From the NCBI RefSeq assembly GCF_015529805.1, contig NZ_CP064654.1, positions 1,178,001 to 1,242,000 of the forward strand: a stretch of 64,000 bases of DNA, in the 5' to 3' direction. The stretch is from Qipengyuania soli. GTDB lineage: Bacteria > Pseudomonadota > Alphaproteobacteria > Sphingomonadales > Sphingomonadaceae. Position numbers and translations under genes: made by a program. Shown here one piece after another: positions 11,873-21,433 of this stretch. Each line of letters begins with the position of its first letter. Positions within the stretch are counted from its first letter, which is position 1. The notes under the pieces were generated by a model, which had not been told where the DNA came from, did not search any database, and saw only the letters and a list, made by a program, of their open reading frames with translations.

Positions 11873-11900
11873 GTAAGTGTTTGAAAGGAAGCGAGAGACA

Positions 11901-13361
11901 ATGGCAAGCGATAGTGTGAGCGGCGCCGGAAAGACTGCCGGACAGGTCGTCACCCGCTTTGCTCCCTCGCCCACCGGATATCTCCATATCGGCGGTGCGC
12001 GCACGGCGCTCTTCAACTGGCTCTATGCCCGCCATCATGGTGGCCGCGTGCTGCTGCGGATCGAGGACACCGACCGCAAGCGCAGCACGCAGGACGCGAT
12101 CGACAAGATCATCGAGGGGCTCGATTGGCTCGGTCTCGATTTCGACGATGCGCCCATGTTCCAGTCTGATCGCGCGGAGCGTCATGCCGAGGTTGCCCAC
12201 CAGCTTCTCGCTGCCGGCCATGCCTACAAGTGCTTCGCCACGCCCGAGGAACTGGAGGCAATGCGCGAGCAACAGCGCGCCGCCAAGCTGCCCTTGCGCT
12301 ATGACCGCCGCTGGCGCGACCGCGATCCGTCGGAAGCGCCTGCGGGTGCGCCCTACGTTATCCGCCTGAAGGTGCCGACCGGAGGCGCGACCACAATCGA
12401 CGATGCGGTCCAGGGCAGGATCACCGTCCAGAACAACGAGATCGACGACTACATCCTGCTGCGCTCGGACGGCACGCCGACCTATATGCTGGCAGTGGTG
12501 GTGGACGACCATGACATGGGCGTCACGCACATCATTCGCGGCGACGACCACATCAACAACGCGTTCCGCCAGCTGCCAATCATCCGCGCCATGAACGCCA
12601 TCGAGGGCAACTGGCCGGATCCGGTCTACGCCCACGTGCCGCTGATCCACGGCCCCGATGGCGCGAAGATGTCGAAGCGTCACGGCGCAGTCGGTGTCGA
12701 GGCCTATCGCGACCAGGAAGGAGTCCTCCCCGAAGCGCTGTTCAACTACCTGCTGCGTCTCGGTTGGGGCCATGGCGACCGCGAGGAAATCACCAAGGAG
12801 GAAGCCGTCGAGCTTTTCGATCTCGACGGTGTCGGCAAGGGCCCGGCGCGCTTCGACATCAAGAAGCTGCAGAACCTCAACGGTCACTACATCCGCGAGG
12901 CCGATGATCGACGCCTGGCGCTGATCGTGGCCGAAAAGATCGGTCCGAAAGCGGATGCGGATTTGCTCACCAAGGCGATGCCCGTCCTGAAGCTACGTGC
13001 GAAGTCCACCAATGAACTTGCTGAAGGTGCTGCATTTCTCTTCGCAAAGCGGCCGCTGGCGATGACTGAGAAGGCGGCGGAACTTCTGGACGACAATGCA
13101 CGGGAACTTCTTTCCGGCCTTTCAAAAATGCTGCACCTGCAAAATGACTGGACAATCGAGGGACTTGAAGCCACTACGAAATCGTATGCGGAGACGCTTG
13201 GATTGGGTCTCGGCAAGCTCGCGCAGCCCATGCGCGCAGCATTGACCGGTACGACAACGTCGCCCGGTATTTTCGATGTGCTGGTCCTGCTGGGAAGGGA
13301 TGAGGCGCTCGCGCGGATCGACGCGCAGGCCCGCTCGGCAGAAGCAGCAAAGGAAGTTTGA
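11901..13361 (+). CDS. gltX: Glutamyl-tRNA synthetase
   Basis: Charges tRNA-Glu with glutamate, and in many alphaproteobacteria tRNA-Gln as well (non-discriminating). The ATG at 11901 is preceded by AAGGAA (11885-11890) and gives 486 residues. The class I signatures are visible: [17 protein letters not shown] (HIGH variant HIGG) and AKMSKRHG (KMSKS loop). The C-terminal anticodon-binding domain runs to the end. A GTG at 11877 is in frame but adds only eight non-conserved residues. gltA follows 10 bases after the stop, so the two are probably co-transcribed. Confidence 0.97.
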
Positions 13362-13371
13362 GGAGAAACGC

Positions 13372-14658
13372 GTGGCCGACAAGCAGGCAACTCTCGATCT
13401 CGGTGGCACGACCCACCAATTCCCGGTTCTTGAAGGCAGCGTCGGACCCGATGTCATCGACATCCGCAAGCTGTACGGCGAGACCGGCGCATTCACTTAC
13501 GATCCCGGCTACAAGTCGACCGCGAGCTGCGAGAGCGCGCTGACCTATATCGACGGTGAAGAGGGCGTCCTGCTCCACCGCGGCTATCCGATCGGCCAGC
13601 TGGCCGAGCATTCGAGCTTCATGGAAGTCAGCTACCTTCTGCTCAATGGCGAGTTGCCCTCGCAGAAGGAACTGGACGACTTCACCTGGACGATCAGCCG
13701 CCATACGATGCTGCACGAGCAGCTGGCGACGTTCTATCGCGGCTTCCGTCGCGATGCGCACCCGATGGCGGTGATGTGCGGCGTGGTTGGCGCCCTGTCG
13801 GCATTTTATCACGACAGCACCGACATCTCCGATCCGGAGCACCGCAAGATCAGCAGTCACCGCCTGATCGCCAAGATGCCGACGATCGCCGCGATGGCGT
13901 ACAAGTACTCCATCGGTCAGCCGTTCCTCTATCCGAAGAACGATCTCAGCTACACCGGCAACTTCCTGCGCATGACCTTCGGCGTGCCGGCCGAGGAATA
14001 CGAAATCCATCCCGCCATCGAGCGTGCAATGGATCGTATCTTCATCCTCCATGCCGACCACGAACAGAACGCGTCGACCTCCACCGTCCGCCTTGCCGGC
14101 TCGTCGGGCGCCAACCCCTTCGCCTGTATCGCCGCCGGCATCGCGTGCCTGTGGGGTCCGGCGCATGGCGGTGCCAACGAAGCAGCGCTGAACATGTTGC
14201 AGGAAATCGGCTCGCCCGATCGCATCCCGCACTACATCGAGCGCGCCAAGGACAAGAACGATCCGTTCCGCCTGATGGGCTTTGGCCACCGCGTCTACAA
14301 GAACTACGATCCGCGTGCGACTGTCATGCAGCAGACGCTGCGTGAAGTGTTCGAAGCGCTCAACGTCAATGACCCGGTTTTCGAAACCGCGCTGCGGCTC
14401 GAGGAGCTCGCGCTAAGCGACGACTACTTCAAGGAAAAGAAGCTTTTCCCGAACGTCGATTTCTACTCGGGCATCATCCTCAACGCGATCGGTTTCCCGA
14501 CGACGATGTTCACCGTGCTCTTCGCCCTTGCCCGCACCGTGGGCTGGGTCGCGCAGTGGAACGAGATGATTTCCGATCCCGGCCAAGTCATCGGTCGCCC
14601 GCGCCAGCTCTACACTGGTCCGACGGAACGCGATTACGTGCCCATCGGCCAGCGCTAA
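13372..14658 (+). CDS. gltA: Citrate synthase (type II)
   Basis: Condenses acetyl-CoA with oxaloacetate at the entry to the TCA cycle. The GTG at 13372 with AGGAGA (13361-13366) gives 428 residues beginning [12 protein letters not shown]; earlier in-frame starts lie inside gltX. The long N-terminal beta domain marks the hexameric Gram-negative type. Catalytic features are [34 protein letters not shown] and the aspartate of VDFYSG. An intrinsic terminator lies 23 bases after the stop. Confidence 0.97.
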
Positions 14659-14709: not shown

Positions 14710-16158
14710 TCAGCCACCGTTTTCGTCGTCCGCGCGCGGCACATCCTTGCCGGGGCCGTCGCGCATCTCGCCGCGCATGTCGTCGGCTGCGGGCACCGAC
14801 AAGGTAAACCGCGCTCCCTGCCCTGGCGCACTTTCGACAGTGAGGTCGCCATCCATCGCCCGTGCGATACGACGCGAGATGTAGAGGCCGAGGCCCGAGC
14901 CGCCATCGCCGCTGCGCCCAAGACGCTCGAACTTCTCGAACACCTTGGACTGCTGGTTCTGGTCGAGCCCCATGCCTTGGTCGGCCACGGTAATCAGCGC
15001 CCGGTTGCCGACCCGGTCGAGACGTATCCAGACCTGGCTCTGATCAGGTGAATAGCGGATCGCATTGCCGACAAGGTTGAGCAGGATCTGCAGGACACGG
15101 CGAAACTCGGCGATGGCCAACTGGCTCTCGCCTTCGACCGGCGGCACCAACGTGATACCCTTCTCCTGCGCACGCACCCCGAGGATGCCACAGGCTCGGC
15201 GCGCTACGTCAGCAAGCTCTATGCGGTCGGGCGCAGTTACGAACTCGTCCGATTCCACGACTTCCAGATCCGAAAGATCGTCGATCAGAGCGAGAAGGTG
15301 CTGCGCCGCCGTGGCAATGTCCGCGGCATAGGAACTGTATTCATCGGCAATGGGGCCGGCGAGCTTGGTTCGGATCGTCTCGGCATTGGCAATGATGCGA
15401 TTGATGGGCTGCCGCAGCACCGGCGTCAGGTCGCGACCGAAAGAGGCACCCTCGATGCCGCTGGGCGACGCGCTCTCTCCCGTAACGGGTTCTGGCGAGG
15501 AGGCCGTGAGGTAGAGCACGAAGCCGGCGCTGCCCGGCTCCATCTGGCCGAGCGGTTCGAGATGGGCAGTCCATTCGCGCCCGGATCCTTCTATCTGGCA
15601 GCGAGCGCCGTCGAGAAGCCGCCAATGGAGCGGTTGTTCGTGGCTGTTTCCCGGCAAGGTGACGAAATCGGTCCACGGGCGGCCTATCGCTTCGCGCGTC
15701 GCCTCGACGAATTGCGCGAGGTCCTGAGCTTCCGTCACGACCGACAGAATGCCTTGCTTGGGGTCCAAACGGGCCGTGCAGTCGGCGAGGTGGCGGTTGA
15801 TTTCGACCCGGCGGCGGGCGGCGTCGAGTTCGTTCTCGGGCGGCAACTCCTCGCTATTCCAGTTGACGACATCGATGGCACAGGCGGCAAAATTGCCTTG
15901 CTCATCGAACTCGGGTGCCAATTCGACCCATGCCGTAATCCGGTTATCGCCATCGACAGCCGAGAACTGGCGCGCGAGGCGCAGTCCGTAGTGCCGCGCC
16001 TTTTCCACCAGCGAGCGCAATTCGGGGACTGCAATGGTTTCACCAACCCGCCCCCCGCAGGCTTCCTGCAGGCCCGCCAAGGGTTCCTGGGCCTCAACGA
16101 GGCGACCTTCGGCATCTGCCCGCCCATGGGCGATATAGCGAGTCCCGACAGTGGTCAT
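14710..16158 (-). CDS. Histidine-kinase-like protein lacking the phosphoacceptor histidine
   Basis: A 482-residue soluble protein with no membrane segment. Residues about 1-230 look like two PAS-like regions. The dimerisation helix has LTPVLRQPINRI where kinases have SHELRTPLNAI: the histidine position is Pro246 (codon CCG, 15421-15423) and the following glutamate is valine. The second helix keeps a PdhS/DivJ-like pattern (YSSYAADI, HLLALIDDLSDL). The ATP-binding domain looks complete: N box NLVGNAIRYS (N361, N365), G1 DQGMG (393-397), F box FEKFER, G2 GGSGLG (419-424). It may therefore bind ATP or act as an allosteric partner, like Caulobacter DivL, which has tyrosine at this place. It starts 1 base after the stop of the upstream gene. 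Confidence 0.85.
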   Translation of the reverse strand: MTTVGTRYIAHGRADAEGRLVEAQEPLAGLQEACGGRVGETIAVPELRSLVEKARHYGLRLARQFSAVDGDNRITAWVELAPEFDEQGNFAACAIDVVNWNSEELPPENELDAARRRVEINRHLADCTARLDPKQGILSVVTEAQDLAQFVEATREAIGRPWTDFVTLPGNSHEQPLHWRLLDGARCQIEGSGREWTAHLEPLGQMEPGSAGFVLYLTASSPEPVTGESASPSGIEGASFGRDLTPVLRQPINRIIANAETIRTKLAGPIADEYSSYAADIATAAQHLLALIDDLSDLEVVESDEFVTAPDRIELADVARRACGILGVRAQEKGITLVPPVEGESQLAIAEFRRVLQILLNLVGNAIRYSPDQSQVWIRLDRVGNRALITVADQGMGLDQNQQSKVFEKFERLGRSGDGGSGLGLYISRRIARAMDGDLTVESAPGQGARFTLSVPAADDMRGEMRDGPGKDVPRADDENGG

Positions 16159-16159
16159 C

Positions 16160-17125
16160 TCAGCTCACCCCCAATGAGCCGGCTTCGGCCAGCAATTGTG
16201 CAGCTTCCGAAGCCGTAATCTCGCCAATCGCTCGCTGGGGATCGGCCTGTGGATGCAGTCGCATGACCTCGACTTCAAGCTGTTCGCGCGAAAGCCCTGC
16301 GGCCCTCAGACCAAGAGCAAGCCTCAAGACCTGCTTCTCGTTCGTGGACAGGACGGCCATGCCGCGCGACTGGCCGGAACGCGCACCGAGCGCGGTTAGG
16401 AAGAGTGCAACGCCTGCGCCCGTTACGTCTAGTGCGGCGGTCGCATCGTCAGCCATCCCGGAGACGAGGCGAGCCAGCAGGGCCAGGCGATTGGTGCTCT
16501 CGTCATAGCCATTGCGCAGTTTGGCCTCCGCCCGGATCATCGCATCCGAGCGACGCTGCCCGTTGAAGGTGCGCCAGGCCAGCAGCAAGGCGTGGAACAG
16601 GTCGCCGGGCAGTTCCGCGAGCGGCAGCTCCATGCGGCGTTGTGCCTGTGCGAAACGCGCTTGTGTTGCGAGCGCGGCCATGGCGGCGCTCGCCTGACTG
16701 CTCTCGGGAGAGGCGATCAGTTCCTGCAGCAATGGCGACAGCACGGGATCGATCCCGTACTGCTGCTCCATGCGCTCGCTCAGCTGCCACTCAAGCGCAA
16801 GCGCATGGCAGTGCGAGAGTATCGCGGGGCTGGCAAAGAAATGTTCGGCAAGATCCTCGCCATGGCGGTCGGCAAAGGCGTCCCTTCCCTTCTCTCCAGT
16901 CGCTTCGGCCTGCGCACGCAGGATTTGCCATGCCATGTCGTGGCACATGCCCCGAATACGCGCGACCAGCTCGTCACTGAACAACGAATGGTCGGGTGTC
17001 GCCAGGAGATGCGAGAGGATAGGTGCAACGCGTGCGAGCATGGCGTTACCCTGCGCCAATTCATCGCGCAGAGCCGCCGTCCGGGTCTTTTCGCCGGACT
17101 CAGGCACGGGGTCGTGCATCTTCAT
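16160..17125 (-). CDS. Unrecognised helical protein in the kinase cluster
   Basis: I do not recognise this 321-residue protein. It has no signal peptide or membrane segment and is rich in Ala, Leu, Glu and Arg, suggesting an all-helical cytosolic protein. Segments such as GDLFHALLLAWRTF and LSTNEKQVLRLALGLR have no motif I can name. The gene lies between the nucleotidyltransferase-like membrane gene (35 bases upstream) and the His-less kinase gene (1 base downstream), so it is almost certainly co-transcribed and may be a partner of the kinase-like protein. The DUF2336 family was considered, but I could not match it. Confidence 0.75.
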   Translation of the reverse strand: MKMHDPVPESGEKTRTAALRDELAQGNAMLARVAPILSHLLATPDHSLFSDELVARIRGMCHDMAWQILRAQAEATGEKGRDAFADRHGEDLAEHFFASPAILSHCHALALEWQLSERMEQQYGIDPVLSPLLQELIASPESSQASAAMAALATQARFAQAQRRMELPLAELPGDLFHALLLAWRTFNGQRRSDAMIRAEAKLRNGYDESTNRLALLARLVSGMADDATAALDVTGAGVALFLTALGARSGQSRGMAVLSTNEKQVLRLALGLRAAGLSREQLEVEVMRLHPQADPQRAIGEITASEAAQLLAEAGSLGVS

Positions 17126-17160
17126 GGGCTTACACTAGCACTTGCATGGTTAATTCGCCG

Positions 17161-18363
17161 TTATTCGCCGCTTGTCGGGGCGAAGAAAAGCGAGAGCATC
17201 ACCAATAGCACGAGAACGGCGGTCACCGGCTGCACTATACCGAGGAAGGCCGCGGGTAGCAGCAGTATCGAAAGTGCCACCCGATCACGATATGTCTCGC
17301 GAAATCTGGACCCTACCATGCGATGGCCAAGCCGGAGCAGGCCGAACAGGACAACAGGGACGAACAGGCGAAGCCATTCGGTATCTTCGGGCGATGCAAG
17401 GGCGATTAGGATGGCGAGAACCGGATCGGTCAGCCAGTCGATTGTCCTCGCCAATGCAGAGCGCCGCGCTGCGGCCTGGCCTGCCAGGGCAATTCGCTCG
17501 ACCGTTTCACCAGCTGCGCCCAGCATGGCCATCAGGGCACCGAAGCCCAGCGCAGTGATCTCCCATCCGAGCAAGGCCAGCGACATGGCAATAACGCCTG
17601 AAAGGCCCGCCAAAATGGCAGGCAGGCGTGCCCAACGCCCGCCCAGCACGTCTTTCGCCAGTCGCGCTCCAATGCGTTCGGATACTGCAAGGCCCGGTGC
17701 GGCGAAGCTGGCAGCAGCCGCGTGATCGCGGATCCATTGCTGTTCGCGCTCGTCGAGCTGCTCGACCGTCGGGTCGAGATGCCACCTGCCCACGTCAATG
17801 AGGCGCTTCTCTATCGGCTGGATCCGAACCCCCGATTGCAGCGCAATGCGCAACAAGGCCGAAATGACATCCGCGTCAGGTGGCAGCTCCGCCAGCCTTT
17901 CGACTGTACTGCCATGCGCGAGGAAAACTCCCGCCCAGGCGAATTCGGCGTCGATACGCTCATATCCCAGCGGCACGGCGTCCTCAGCGGGGAAGACCAG
18001 CACTGATGGACGTACAGAGTACTTGAGCACGACCTCGTCGGCGGGAAGCAGTCCCGCACCAACAACGAAAATCTCGTCCGCGGCCGATACAAGTCCGGAA
18101 AGTGGACGGGTTTCCTGCATGGCAACGAAACGGACGCCTGCGGCTTCGGCGCGCTTCTGGGCCTCTATCACTTCGCGCCCGATGCCATCGACGAGGCAAG
18201 CAATCGTGCCGCAATCGGCAGCCAGGGCGAGATCAACTTGCCTTTCGATGATCCGCGAACCTGCAAAATGGCGGAACGCAGGCCGGATCCGTCCCAGCGC
18301 GGGCGAATGGTCTAGTGTGGACAAGAGGGCGACGCGCAAGTCGTGCTCCGGCAGTTTCTTCAA
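17161..18363 (-). CDS. Membrane protein: nucleotidyltransferase-like domain plus degenerate CDP-alcohol phosphotransferase-like domain
   Basis: A 400-residue protein starting at a TTG (18363). An in-frame stop lies just upstream and the next ATG would remove about 80 residues, so TTG is the only sensible start. Residues about 10-190 look like a GT-A/MobA-type nucleotidyltransferase (SRIIERQVDLAL, VVGAGLLPADEV, AEFAWAGVFL). Residues about 245-395 carry several hydrophobic helices. Between them, GETVER (285-290) and DWLTD (309-313) loosely resemble the CDP-alcohol phosphotransferase signature DGxxAR...GxxxDxxxD, but the first aspartate is lost. The order matches archaeal-type inositol-phosphate cytidylyltransferase/phosphotransferase fusions. 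Activity is doubtful; this assignment is inference. Confidence 0.65.
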   Translation of the reverse strand: MKKLPEHDLRVALLSTLDHSPALGRIRPAFRHFAGSRIIERQVDLALAADCGTIACLVDGIGREVIEAQKRAEAAGVRFVAMQETRPLSGLVSAADEIFVVGAGLLPADEVVLKYSVRPSVLVFPAEDAVPLGYERIDAEFAWAGVFLAHGSTVERLAELPPDADVISALLRIALQSGVRIQPIEKRLIDVGRWHLDPTVEQLDEREQQWIRDHAAAASFAAPGLAVSERIGARLAKDVLGGRWARLPAILAGLSGVIAMSLALLGWEITALGFGALMAMLGAAGETVERIALAGQAAARRSALARTIDWLTDPVLAILIALASPEDTEWLRLFVPVVLFGLLRLGHRMVGSRFRETYRDRVALSILLLPAAFLGIVQPVTAVLVLLVMLSLFFAPTSGE

Positions 18364-18436: not shown

Positions 18437-18742
18437 TCAGGCTTCGATGCGCAACTCGGTCACCAGTTCCGCCAGCCTCGTCAGGATCGTAGGCTCACCA
18501 GGGGCAGCACTCTGCGCATCATCGGCCAACTGGCGCAGTTCCTCGACATGGAAACTTCCGGCAATGGCGTGGAGCCTTTGCGCGGCAACGCTCCAGTTGC
18601 CGTCACAACGGGCGCGGCGCAGCAGGTCCAGCTGCCGCTCCACGCTCTCGACAAACGCAGCACGCAGCTCGGCCTGCAGCGCCGGGTCATCACCGGATGC
18701 TGCGCCAAGCGCCGCGAGAAAGGGTCCCTGCTGGTAAGTCAT
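18437..18742 (-). CDS. Hpt-like (histidine phosphotransfer) domain protein
   Basis: A small all-helical protein of 101 residues from the ATG at 18742. The segment RLHAIAGSFHVEELRQLADDAQ fits the Hpt core HxLKGS...G...L, with His58 at the phosphorylation position, followed by Gly62 and Ser63. The usual lysine after the histidine is alanine. It probably relays phosphate between a response regulator and another protein, or is a degenerate version. It is the first gene of a minus-strand set ending in the His-less kinase, with about 70 bases between it and the next gene. A TTG 9 bases upstream is an alternative start. Confidence 0.7.
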   Translation of the reverse strand: MTYQQGPFLAALGAASGDDPALQAELRAAFVESVERQLDLLRRARCDGNWSVAAQRLHAIAGSFHVEELRQLADDAQSAAPGEPTILTRLAELVTELRIEA

Positions 18743-18814
18743 TGGTCGCAAACCATACCAGCCAAAGGGTTAAAGTGGGTTTAAGCATGTCGTTTTCGTG
18801 ATAGCTTCACGCTC

Positions 18815-21433
18815 ATGAGAAAGCGCTCACTGATCCAGGCCGTCTCCGATGGGGACTCGTCGTCAACCGATGAAATCCTTCTTACAGAGGAGGTTGTCGA
18901 GGAAGCTTCAGACGATGTCTACGAGGCGACGGAGGTGTGGGAAGAGGAACAGCAAACCAATTCCACGCAATGGATTGCCCCCACGGTCGCGATCGTGGCC
19001 ATCGCCGCATGGACTGCTTTCTATGTCTGGGCAAACAGCGCCGCGATGTTCGTCGGCGCGACAGCCCAGCAATGGAGCGGCTGGATTACCTCATGGTCGA
19101 TCCCCGTTCTGCTGGTCGTTTCATTGTGGCTCCTCGCCATGCGCAACTCCACCCGTGAGGCCCAACGTTACGGCGAGGTAGCCTTGTCGCTGCGCGAAGA
19201 ATCGTCGCGGCTCGAGGAACGACTCGTCACTGTGAACCGCGAACTCAGCCTGGCGCGTGAATTCCTGACCTCGCAGACGCGCGATCTCGAATACCTCGGC
19301 CGATCGGCCTCCGAACGGATTTCCGAAAATGCCGATCGCCTCCAGGGCCTTATCAGGCACAATGGTGAGCAGGTCGACGCCATCGCCAAGGTCAGCGAAA
19401 CGGCGCTCGAGAACATGGACCGGCTGCGTGACAACCTCCCGGTCCTCGCTAATTCCGCGAAGGACGTCTCGAACCAGATCGGCAGTGCCGGACGGACCGC
19501 CAAGTCGCAGGTCGACGAATTGATTGAGGGCTTCAAGCGCCTCAACGACTTCGGAGCCGCAAGCGAACGCCAGGTTACTTCGCTGCGCACTCGCGTCGAT
19601 GAAGCGCTCGAAGCGTTCACCGAACAGACCGAACAGCTGGGCACCGTCGCCGACGCACGCTTTGCAACCTTGCGCGAACAGAGCGAGGTTTTCCGTGCCG
19701 ACCTCGACAGCCGCGAAGTCGATGCACTCGCTTCGATTCGCGCGCGCGCCGATGCGCTTCGTGCCGAACTGGAATCGGCGCGCGTGGCTGCCGATGCGGA
19801 ACACGAGGCCGCGCTCGCTACCCTGCGCGAACGGATCCAGAGCCTCCAGCTGGAATCCACACGCATCTCTATCGGTGTGAGAGACGGAGAGAAGGCGGCG
19901 ATCGAAGCATGGGGCAGTCAGGTCAACGCGATGGCCGACCGTCTTCGCGAAGCTATCGAGGAGATCCGCAAGATCGACGAATCCGCCCTGGTTGCCGCAA
20001 ATACCAAGCTCAAGGCGTTATTCGAGGAGGCGACTGCGGTCGACGAACGCATCACCGAGCGCAACCGCGCCTTCGACGAACAGAATGCCAAGCGTCGGGT
20101 CGAACTCGAGGAGGCCGAGCAGGCGGCCATCGCCGCGATGCGTTCGCGCCTCGAGACTCTCGACGCCGCGCTCGAGGATCGCCAGCGCTCGCATGCCGAA
20201 AGCGCCCAGGCGCTCGTGCGTGAAGGCGAAAACCTCGTGGCCCGCCTAGCCGAGCTGGGTTCGAGCTTTGCCAAGGTCGAAAGCCAGGGCCGCGAAGCCA
20301 GCGGTGCCATTGCCGACAGCGTCGACGCACTGAACGCCAAGCTGTTGGAAAGCCGCGAGGCCCTTGATGGCACCGACATGGCGGTCGCTGCACTGACCGA
20401 CGCAAGCGTGCGGCTTCTCGAACTCATCCAGGCGAGTGCCAAGCAGGGTCGCGAAATCCTGCCTGAGGCGATGGCGTCGAGTGAACAGCGCCTCACTGCA
20501 ATCGAAACACGCGCCCGGGATATCAAGGCTCTCCTCGAGACTGCCGGCGCTGCAGGCTCGGATGCTGCGGCAAGCATGGAGCTGACCGACCAGCGGGCCC
20601 GCTCTGCAATTGCCGAAATCGAGGCATTCCAGTCCCGATTCGCCGAAACCGCAACCGCGCAAATTGGTAGCATCGAGCGCTTGCGAGACAGCGTTTCTGC
20701 GCTGGGCAGCGAAAATGAGGCCGTTGCCGAGAGAGCTAAGAACGAACTGCGCGCAGCTATCGAACAACTCGAAAGCAGCGCTCGCGACGCGATTGCGGCG
20801 ATCGAGACCGAGCAGGGAGATCGCCTTGCGAAGATCGCCGACCGTGTCGGCGAACAAAGCGCGCAGGCCATCGATCGCGCGCTGGCCGAACATACCGAAC
20901 AGGCGCTGGGCAAGATCGACGAGGCGACCTCTCGTTCGACCAATGCTGGCCGCGAAACTATCCGCATGATGCGCGACCAGCTGGCCAAGGTGAACGAGCT
21001 GACCGGCAATCTGGAAAGTCGCATTGCGCAGGCACGCGAACGTGCGAGCGAGGAGGTCGGGAACGACTTTTCGCGTCGTGTGGCGCTAATTACCGAGAGC
21101 CTGAACTCGAATGCCATCGACATCGCCAAGGCGCTGAGCACCGAGGTAACCGACACCGCCTGGGCGAGCTACCTGCGCGGGGATCGGGGCATCTTCACTC
21201 GCCGTGCGGTACGACTGCTGGACAACACCGAGGCGCGCGAGATTGCCGAGCTTTACGACACCGACCACGATTTCCGAGAGCATGTCAGCCGCTACATCCA
21301 TGACTTCGAATCGATGCTGCGCACCATGCTCTCGACCCGCGACGGTCACGCACTCAGCGTGACGCTGCTGTCGAGCGACATGGGCAAGCTCTACGTGGCG
21401 ATGGCGCAGGCACTGGAACGCCTGCGGCAATAA
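18815..21433 (+). CDS. Large coiled-coil inner-membrane protein
   Basis: An 872-residue protein with an acidic N-terminal segment (about 1-50, many Glu and Asp), two transmembrane helices (about 53-75 and 90-110), then about 600 residues of nearly continuous coiled coil rich in Ala, Glu, Arg, Gln and Ser. A compact C-terminal domain of about 110 residues is not coiled coil (WASYLRGDRGIFTRRAVRLL, YDTDHDFREHVSRYIHDFE). Topology suggests a long cytoplasmic rod anchored in the inner membrane. I do not know its function. It is divergent from the Hpt gene with 72 bases between them. It resembles the signalling region of chemoreceptors only in composition; no MCP hairpin signature is present. Confidence 0.85.
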   Translation: MRKRSLIQAVSDGDSSSTDEILLTEEVVEEASDDVYEATEVWEEEQQTNSTQWIAPTVAIVAIAAWTAFYVWANSAAMFVGATAQQWSGWITSWSIPVLLVVSLWLLAMRNSTREAQRYGEVALSLREESSRLEERLVTVNRELSLAREFLTSQTRDLEYLGRSASERISENADRLQGLIRHNGEQVDAIAKVSETALENMDRLRDNLPVLANSAKDVSNQIGSAGRTAKSQVDELIEGFKRLNDFGAASERQVTSLRTRVDEALEAFTEQTEQLGTVADARFATLREQSEVFRADLDSREVDALASIRARADALRAELESARVAADAEHEAALATLRERIQSLQLESTRISIGVRDGEKAAIEAWGSQVNAMADRLREAIEEIRKIDESALVAANTKLKALFEEATAVDERITERNRAFDEQNAKRRVELEEAEQAAIAAMRSRLETLDAALEDRQRSHAESAQALVREGENLVARLAELGSSFAKVESQGREASGAIADSVDALNAKLLESREALDGTDMAVAALTDASVRLLELIQASAKQGREILPEAMASSEQRLTAIETRARDIKALLETAGAAGSDAAASMELTDQRARSAIAEIEAFQSRFAETATAQIGSIERLRDSVSALGSENEAVAERAKNELRAAIEQLESSARDAIAAIETEQGDRLAKIADRVGEQSAQAIDRALAEHTEQALGKIDEATSRSTNAGRETIRMMRDQLAKVNELTGNLESRIAQARERASEEVGNDFSRRVALITESLNSNAIDIAKALSTEVTDTAWASYLRGDRGIFTRRAVRLLDNTEAREIAELYDTDHDFREHVSRYIHDFESMLRTMLSTRDGHALSVTLLSSDMGKLYVAMAQALERLRQ

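Follow-up and report, generated by a model that had tools for sequence, protein, structure and literature searches.

A PdhS-type kinase family of sphingomonads without its phosphoacceptor histidine, possibly one half of a split histidine kinase

A gene of Qipengyuania soli encodes a kinase-like protein in which proline stands in place of the phosphoacceptor histidine, and we tentatively propose that this protein and an unlinked homologue together form a split, heterodimeric HisKA-type kinase under CtrA control. The gene lies on the minus strand at positions 14710 to 16158 of the 64,000-nucleotide stretch of DNA that was analyzed (hereafter the window). As judged from its sequence, its 482-amino-acid product is a His-less PdhS-type kinase with the architecture PAS-PAS-DHp-CA, an assignment drawn from the open reading frame, Pfam matches, an AF2 model and fold matches in the PDB. 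The two proteins are homologous along PAS, DHp and CA domains, each retains parts that the other has lost, they occur together among genomes, and the window gene belongs to a conserved operon with conserved CtrA-like boxes.

Pfam assigns residues 353–457 (positions 14788 to 15102, minus strand, as are the other kinase features given below) to the CA domain (HATPase_c, E = 1.3e-27), with intact N, G1, F and G2 boxes. HisKA is matched with E = 9.5e-6 at 26.0 bits, just under the cut-off of 26.9, in an alignment that begins at residue 248; the same domain reaches 29.5 bits, above the cut-off, in a six-frame search. The AF2 model, made with 62 sequences, has a mean pLDDT of 89.4 and a pTM of 0.52, and its fold matches in the PDB include the transmitters of HK853, DivL (4q20) and RetS. 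In this model, helix 1 of the DHp domain (residues 240–264; positions 15367 to 15441) is unbroken across residue 246, and helix 2 spans residues 272–302 (positions 15253 to 15345). Residues 10–219 (positions 15502 to 16131) probably form two PAS-like domains, by our reading of the predicted secondary structure, and Pfam PAS_4 is matched in 6 of 62 members of the window family.

The register of the acceptor site was set by aligning 19 PdhS-type kinases, 18 of which carry SHELRTPLNAIIGF and one SHELKTPLNAIIGF. The kinase motif is GRDLTPVLRQPINRIIANAETI, such that residue 246, encoded at positions 15421 to 15423, is the first proline of PVLRQPIN and residue 247 is valine, exactly as the initial annotation had read them. 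The same alignment supports the resemblance of helix 2 to the PdhS/DivJ family that had been proposed there. The window family shares this helix 2 pattern with the PdhS family (DivJ, PleC, PdhS), which also supplies its nearest His-bearing relatives in the order and its neighbor in the tree described below. It differs in that the PdhS acceptor motif HELRTPLNAIIGF has become PVLRQPINRIIAN, with both the acceptor and the acidic residue beside it gone and the phosphatase threonine present in only 8 of 190 orthologues.

These 190 orthologues were obtained from 198 by counting kinases with identical last 230 residues once; some organisms are present twice, as a genome and as a named record. The acceptor column holds proline in 124 and histidine in two; in the other 64 it holds R, Q, A, G, K, S, E, T, N or D. 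Because 188 of the 190 lack histidine here, Pro246 is not a sequencing accident. The loss of histidine is therefore fixed, although proline itself is not, and homologues with histidine, which would have spoken against a His-less family, amount to only the two. The column counts indicate that proline is usual in one part of the family and that the site drifts in the rest. The ATP site, by comparison, drifts nowhere: N361, N365, D393, G395, F407, G420, G422 and G424 are each present in 190 of 190, which bears out the earlier description of the ATP-binding boxes as intact. Column 247 holds neither Glu nor Asp in any orthologue, and RIIANAETI in helix 1 is kept well despite the drift at the acceptor position. 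The two sequences with histidine (L112 and L114) come from one genus (g46) and place it in the context DHSFKP, not HELRTP; their sister L111 has arginine at this column, and all three derive from 2.1-Mb genomes with loci of 42–44% GC.

A relocated acceptor was considered and rejected. His287 is histidine in 185 of 190 orthologues, and no other column within residues 236–303 has histidine in more than 10 of the 190. However, the equivalent residue is also histidine in 19 of 19 ordinary PdhS-type relatives, so that His287 belongs to helix 2 in general and is no relocated acceptor.

Our search for kinase homologues covered the order. Among the matches listed, those that cover the N-terminal half belong, within the order, only to the window's own family, in which all named members are sphingomonads, and those from other families of the order are to the transmitter only. 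Beyond the family, the best match was read in 19 genomes of the order, and in each it is an ordinary kinase that carries SHEL(R/K)TPLNAIIGF and lacks an adjoining citrate synthase gene. A quick tree, made from 56 rows without bootstrap, places the 31 family rows on one side of a branch with SH-aLRT 99. It joins them to 18 of 19 PdhS-type rows at SH-aLRT 85 and carries long-branch warnings for the outgroups; the two DivL rows, also under a long-branch warning, failed to group. By this quick tree, the window family appears to be a clade of its own adjoining ordinary PdhS-type kinases.

The initial annotation had suggested that the protein may be a regulator independent of DivL, and the data support that it is not the DivL orthologue: the genome encodes a separate 803-amino-acid protein with MSYEFRTPL, in which tyrosine takes the place of histidine and which matches DivL best in the PDB (E = 2.7e-29). 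Orthology of the window kinase to DivL is rejected on this ground, and its separate clade agrees. Like the window protein, DivL of Caulobacter crescentus has PAS domains, a DHp domain with its histidine replaced and a retained CA fold. DivL differs in using tyrosine, as opposed to proline and other residues in the window family, and in keeping ELRTP. We know of no reciprocal partner of DivL.

The kinase gene is the last of four in an operon whose order is Hpt-like protein (104 amino acids; positions 18437 to 18751), 400-amino-acid protein (17161 to 18363), DUF2336-related protein (321 amino acids; 16160 to 17125) and kinase, all on the minus strand; the stop of the DUF2336-related gene lies one base before the kinase start codon. 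This operon is convergent with two plus-strand synteny markers, the genes for citrate synthase (13276 to 14658 as the longest open reading frame; PDB match with E = 2.3e-207) and glutamyl-tRNA synthetase (11877 to 13361; PDB match with E = 8.7e-126). Among 80 named loci, the DUF2336-related gene directly precedes the kinase in 79, the last three genes occur together in 77, and the Hpt-like gene is found in 63, with some loci ending before its position. In 60 divergent loci, the DUF2336-related gene is found in 52 and the 400-amino-acid gene in 56. The Hpt-like gene is found in 32 of these (34 less two wrong open reading frames) and is thus less constant than the other genes of the operon. Named relatives that carry the kinase include Qipengyuania, Erythrobacter, Novosphingobium, Sphingobium, Sphingopyxis and Sphingomonas.

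The Hpt-like protein has also lost its histidine, with Gln58 at the phospho-His position. At E ≤ 1, Pfam recognizes Hpt in 25 of 32 members of its family, and a PDB sequence search with the family profile gave chance-level matches alone (best E 0.06). The register was taken from the Hpt motif HxLKG and from the Hpt domain of the organism's own hybrid kinase (VHKLAG), the latter aligned with very low probability. In this register, 95 of 96 rows carry a residue other than histidine (M in 36, W in 20, L in 20), leaving out L067 and L087 as wrong open reading frames and, in alignment A1, also L099; the one row with histidine is L089. The sequences thus read describe a bacterial pseudo-Hpt family without phospho-His. 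The plant protein AHP6 likewise has an Hpt fold without the acceptor histidine, and differs from the present family in that the latter is bacterial and shares an operon with a His-less kinase.

The DUF2336-related protein is predicted to be all-helical (pLDDT 94.0). The DUF2336 domain is matched in 8 of 21 family members and is absent from the window's own member; Foldseek against the PDB returned nothing at E ≤ 0.001, and a full-text search of one open-access library for DUF2336 found no paper. The 400-amino-acid protein, which is probably membrane-bound, belongs to a family with Pfam traces of NTP-transferase in 4 of 21 members and of CDP-alcohol phosphotransferase in 1 of 21. The strict catalytic pattern of the latter enzyme occurs in 0 of 193 family members, although by eye L117 nearly has it, and catalytic motifs have apparently been lost in nearly all members. 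In a class-wide search (385 genomes, at most four candidates scored in each), near full-length matches to this protein were found in five genomes, all from the window's family, and the remaining 43 genomes with a match show one domain only. On the other side of the operon, a divergent plus-strand gene for an 872-amino-acid protein (18815 to 21433) is kept beside it. By eye, its N-terminus shows membrane segments and a long coiled coil is also present, and no Pfam family exceeds its cut-off; the protein may resemble polarity proteins such as TipN.

Two CtrA-like boxes accompany the operon, both read on the minus strand. One, TAAACCCACTTTAACC (positions 18768 to 18783), is upstream of the Hpt-like gene in a region shared with the divergent gene, and the other, TAACGGCGAATTAACC (positions 17148 to 17163), is upstream of the DUF2336-kinase pair and overlaps the stop of the 400-amino-acid gene. 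For comparison, the CtrA consensus is given as TTAA-N7-TTAA and TTAACCAT (PMC6180460). Within 150 bases upstream, TTAAC is present for the Hpt-like gene in 55 of 61 loci and for the DUF2336-related gene in 73 of 79. The corresponding counts are 2 of 80 for the kinase, 2 of 65 for citrate synthase, 1 of 60 for glutamyl-tRNA synthetase and 16 of 73 for the 400-amino-acid gene, and shuffled sequence from upstream of the Hpt-like gene contains TTAAC in about 15% of cases. Spacing is also kept, with TTAAC 27–30 bases ahead of the Hpt-like start in 50 of 57 loci and 27–31 bases ahead of the DUF2336-related start in 61 of 73, taking the nearest Met as the start. Strict CtrA patterns show no genome-wide enrichment (5 against 7 in a reversed control; 8 against 9 for TAA-N7-TTAACC). 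The argument for CtrA control is instead made from conservation across loci and from the fact that two of the eight TAA-N7-TTAACC sites in the genome are the two boxes of this operon, to which CtrA would bind. Another of the eight (G000:C1:549966-549981, L331) precedes a gene for a CcrM-like methylase, which scores 601.6 bits (E = 3.8e-181) against the CcrM methylase model, under the model cut-off of 830.

A listing of HisKA and HATPase domains across the genome contains one HisKA protein without a HATPase match. This candidate partner is a 591-amino-acid protein encoded at G000:C1:705133-706905 (L337), outside the window and unlinked to the kinase gene, and it keeps LLHELRTPVNAMQGYSE, with HELRTP, in front of a degenerate CA domain. 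We scored identical box patterns on the last 260 residues of three sets of proteins. In the partner family (70 genomes, distant ones included), the His box is present in 69, the N-box in 0, G1 in 2 and G2 in 0. The window family of 190 is the reverse, with the N-box in 188, G1 in 189, G2 in 188 and the canonical His box in 0, and the 19 PdhS-type controls have the His box, G1 and G2 in all 19 and the N-box in 16. Pfam gives the same picture: HATPase_c is matched in 62 of 62 scanned window-family members versus 0 of 29 partners, and HisKA in 57 of 62 versus 29 of 29. The residue adjoining the partner histidine is Glu in 71 of 71 rows, one genome being present twice. A single partner (L394) has lysine in place of the acceptor histidine.

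Comparison of the two family profiles yields E = 2.4e-21 over 323 columns that include the PAS domain adjoining the DHp domain. In NCBIfam, the DHp domain of the own-genome partner best matches PdhS and DivJ, and that of two distant partners best matches PhoR. Scores on a PdhS DHp profile are 57.6 bits for the window protein, 42.9 for the DivL-like protein, 38.8 for the partner and 36.4 for a PhoR-like kinase; the case for descent of the partner from PdhS is thus weak, its score being below that of the DivL-like protein and barely above that of the PhoR-like kinase. CtrA-like sites do not mark the partner gene (TTAACC in 11 of 70). The phosphotransferases ChpT and Spo0B also combine a His-bearing DHp domain with a degenerate CA domain, and the partner could instead be a protein of this type fed by another kinase. 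Unlike these, the partner matches HisKA alone in Pfam (29 of 29) and keeps HELRTP. HPTransfase, the ChpT-type Pfam family, is matched by 0 of 29 partners and, weakly, by 2 of 62 window-family members.

The two families occur together. Among 199 genomes of the taxonomic family, both are found in 146, either one alone in 5 and 5, and neither in 43, at thresholds of E ≤ 1e-45 for the window family and E ≤ 1e-25 for the partner and with both searches taken as the same draw of 199 genomes. Each protein is thereby present in 151 of 199 (Fisher p 2.9e-32, without phylogenetic correction); many of the genomes counted as having neither may be too divergent for these thresholds. Four of the ten mismatches are assemblies of 66–87% completeness, and the others are 90–100% complete. 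Both sequences could be read in 51 genomes, and in 51 of 51 a kinase without histidine is paired with a partner that has it. Mirror-tree analysis gave a partial r of 0.784 in a first set of 23 genomes (a second set has just 5), and with controls in 25 genomes the signal is not specific to the pair, the partner correlating with the DUF2336-related protein at 0.899 and with the kinase at 0.890.

A split kinase is the most economical reading of these data, because a co-conserved homologue has exactly the parts that the window protein is missing. The window protein would be the ATP-binding half, descended from a PdhS-type kinase that lost its acceptor, its acidic neighbor and, mostly, the threonine, and the partner would be the acceptor half, with HELRTP kept and its CA domain dead. 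Were the two to form a mixed DHp dimer, the CA domain of the window protein would phosphorylate the partner histidine, which would then serve a receiver. The Hpt-like protein, lacking histidine, might bind receivers or DHp domains as a non-transferring decoy. Given the operon and its CtrA-like boxes, such a kinase would couple to the CckA-ChpT-CtrA network. Because eight ATP-site residues are retained in 190 of 190 orthologues, ATP is probably used and does not serve scaffolding alone. Conversely, autokinase or phosphatase chemistry on the protein's own DHp domain is unlikely, since the acceptor, the acidic neighbor and mostly the threonine are lost. Counting against a split kinase are the exceptions to the pairing noted above, the two window-family members with histidine and the partner with lysine, as well as the lack of linkage between the genes. 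A precedent for dividing ATP-binding and His-bearing functions between two proteins is CheA3/CheA4 of Rhodobacter sphaeroides (PMC3591291). That system is of CheA type and arose by loss of whole domains, as opposed to the point loss and CA decay in two homologues of HisKA type seen here.

Ranking close behind is a possible, if more doubtful, role as a DivL-like allosteric pseudokinase, in which the DHp domain binds a phosphorylated receiver or kinase, the output is conformational, ATP is structural and no phosphoryl group is transferred. The loss is of the same kind, and the DivL transmitter, itself reported to be repurposed as a sensor of a phosphorylated receiver (PMC4211667), is among the fold matches of our model; conservation of RIIANAETI beside a drifting acceptor position is also in keeping with such a role. 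Against it, the window protein is not the DivL orthologue, a separate MSYEFRTPL protein exists, an ATP site unchanged in 190 of 190 exceeds the needs of a scaffold, some alphaproteobacteria are reported to have a DivL without a kinase domain (PMC2877005), and the reciprocal partner is left unexplained. Since the Hpt-like protein has lost its histidine and a reciprocal protein is co-conserved, phosphorylation in a mixed dimer is at least as likely as pure allostery. The two readings would be compatible in a mixed dimer that senses a receiver as well. RetS heterodimerizes with an intact kinase and blocks it, and a negative regulator of this kind, acting for example on the 928-amino-acid hybrid kinase of the same genome, seems unlikely. 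The RetS kinase region is among the fold matches and the hybrid kinase DHp is the best of the tested own-genome open reading frames against the PdhS DHp profile, but nothing points to a specific partner.

Other readings have less in their favor. Autophosphorylation at another histidine, namely His287, or action on a Ser/Thr/Tyr substrate, as in PDK-type GHKL kinases, is improbable: the intact ATP site and the near-constancy of His287 would allow it, but the equivalent histidine of the PdhS-type kinases and an N-box like that of ordinary histidine kinases argue otherwise. Phosphorylation of the Hpt-like protein in trans, in the manner of CheA, was also considered, as the two proteins share an operon wherever the Hpt-like gene is found. 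We dropped it as very improbable, because the Hpt-like protein is itself His-less in 95 of 96 rows, and its gene is present in only 32 of 60 divergent loci. Least credible is a decaying gene without function. Catalytic residues have indeed been lost from the kinase, the Hpt-like protein and, seemingly, the 400-amino-acid protein. Nonetheless, decay is ruled out by conservation: the gene is present in 37 of 37 genomes examined from the genus and in most of those from the family, its ATP site is invariant, and in 7 of 7 pairs its dN is 0.12–0.18 versus a dS of 1.3–2.3, the latter near saturation. With dN far below dS and gene order kept, the gene is not decaying. A phenotype also argues against decay, as CRISPRi of the Zymomonas unit ZMO1961-ZMO1962, which spans both genes and lies at this place by gene order, is reported to have an oxygen-specific effect (PMC10746277).

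This unit is the window locus as matched by gene order alone, with ZMO1963 being citrate synthase and ZMO1964 glutamyl-tRNA synthetase (PMC4033097). ZMO1962 is listed with lower protein on hydrolysate (PMC12502597) and as one of the genes that are lower at high temperature (PMC8237431); in print it goes under putative histidine kinase or two-component protein. In our search of one open-access library, neither a lost histidine nor a split kinase was found described at this locus; the partner has no name that could be searched. We advance with some reserve the broader proposition that a HisKA kinase has been divided by reciprocal degeneration into an obligate heterodimer, with ATP catalysis on one chain and the phosphoacceptor and phosphatase residues on the other, fixed, along with the pseudo-Hpt of a CtrA-controlled operon, across most sphingomonads. 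This would amount to a natural intragenic complementation that sets ATP-driven input apart from the output histidine. If true, it would to our knowledge be the first split kinase of the HisKA family kept by evolution. Even the pseudokinase reading alone would provide a second family-wide loss of the acceptor histidine, independent of DivL and with a fully constrained ATP site, and the operon would still add a pseudo-Hpt. In sphingomonads, the DivJ-PleC-DivK layer has been reported as degenerate or lost (PMC2877005), and a split kinase, if confirmed, would give these bacteria a different input into CtrA.
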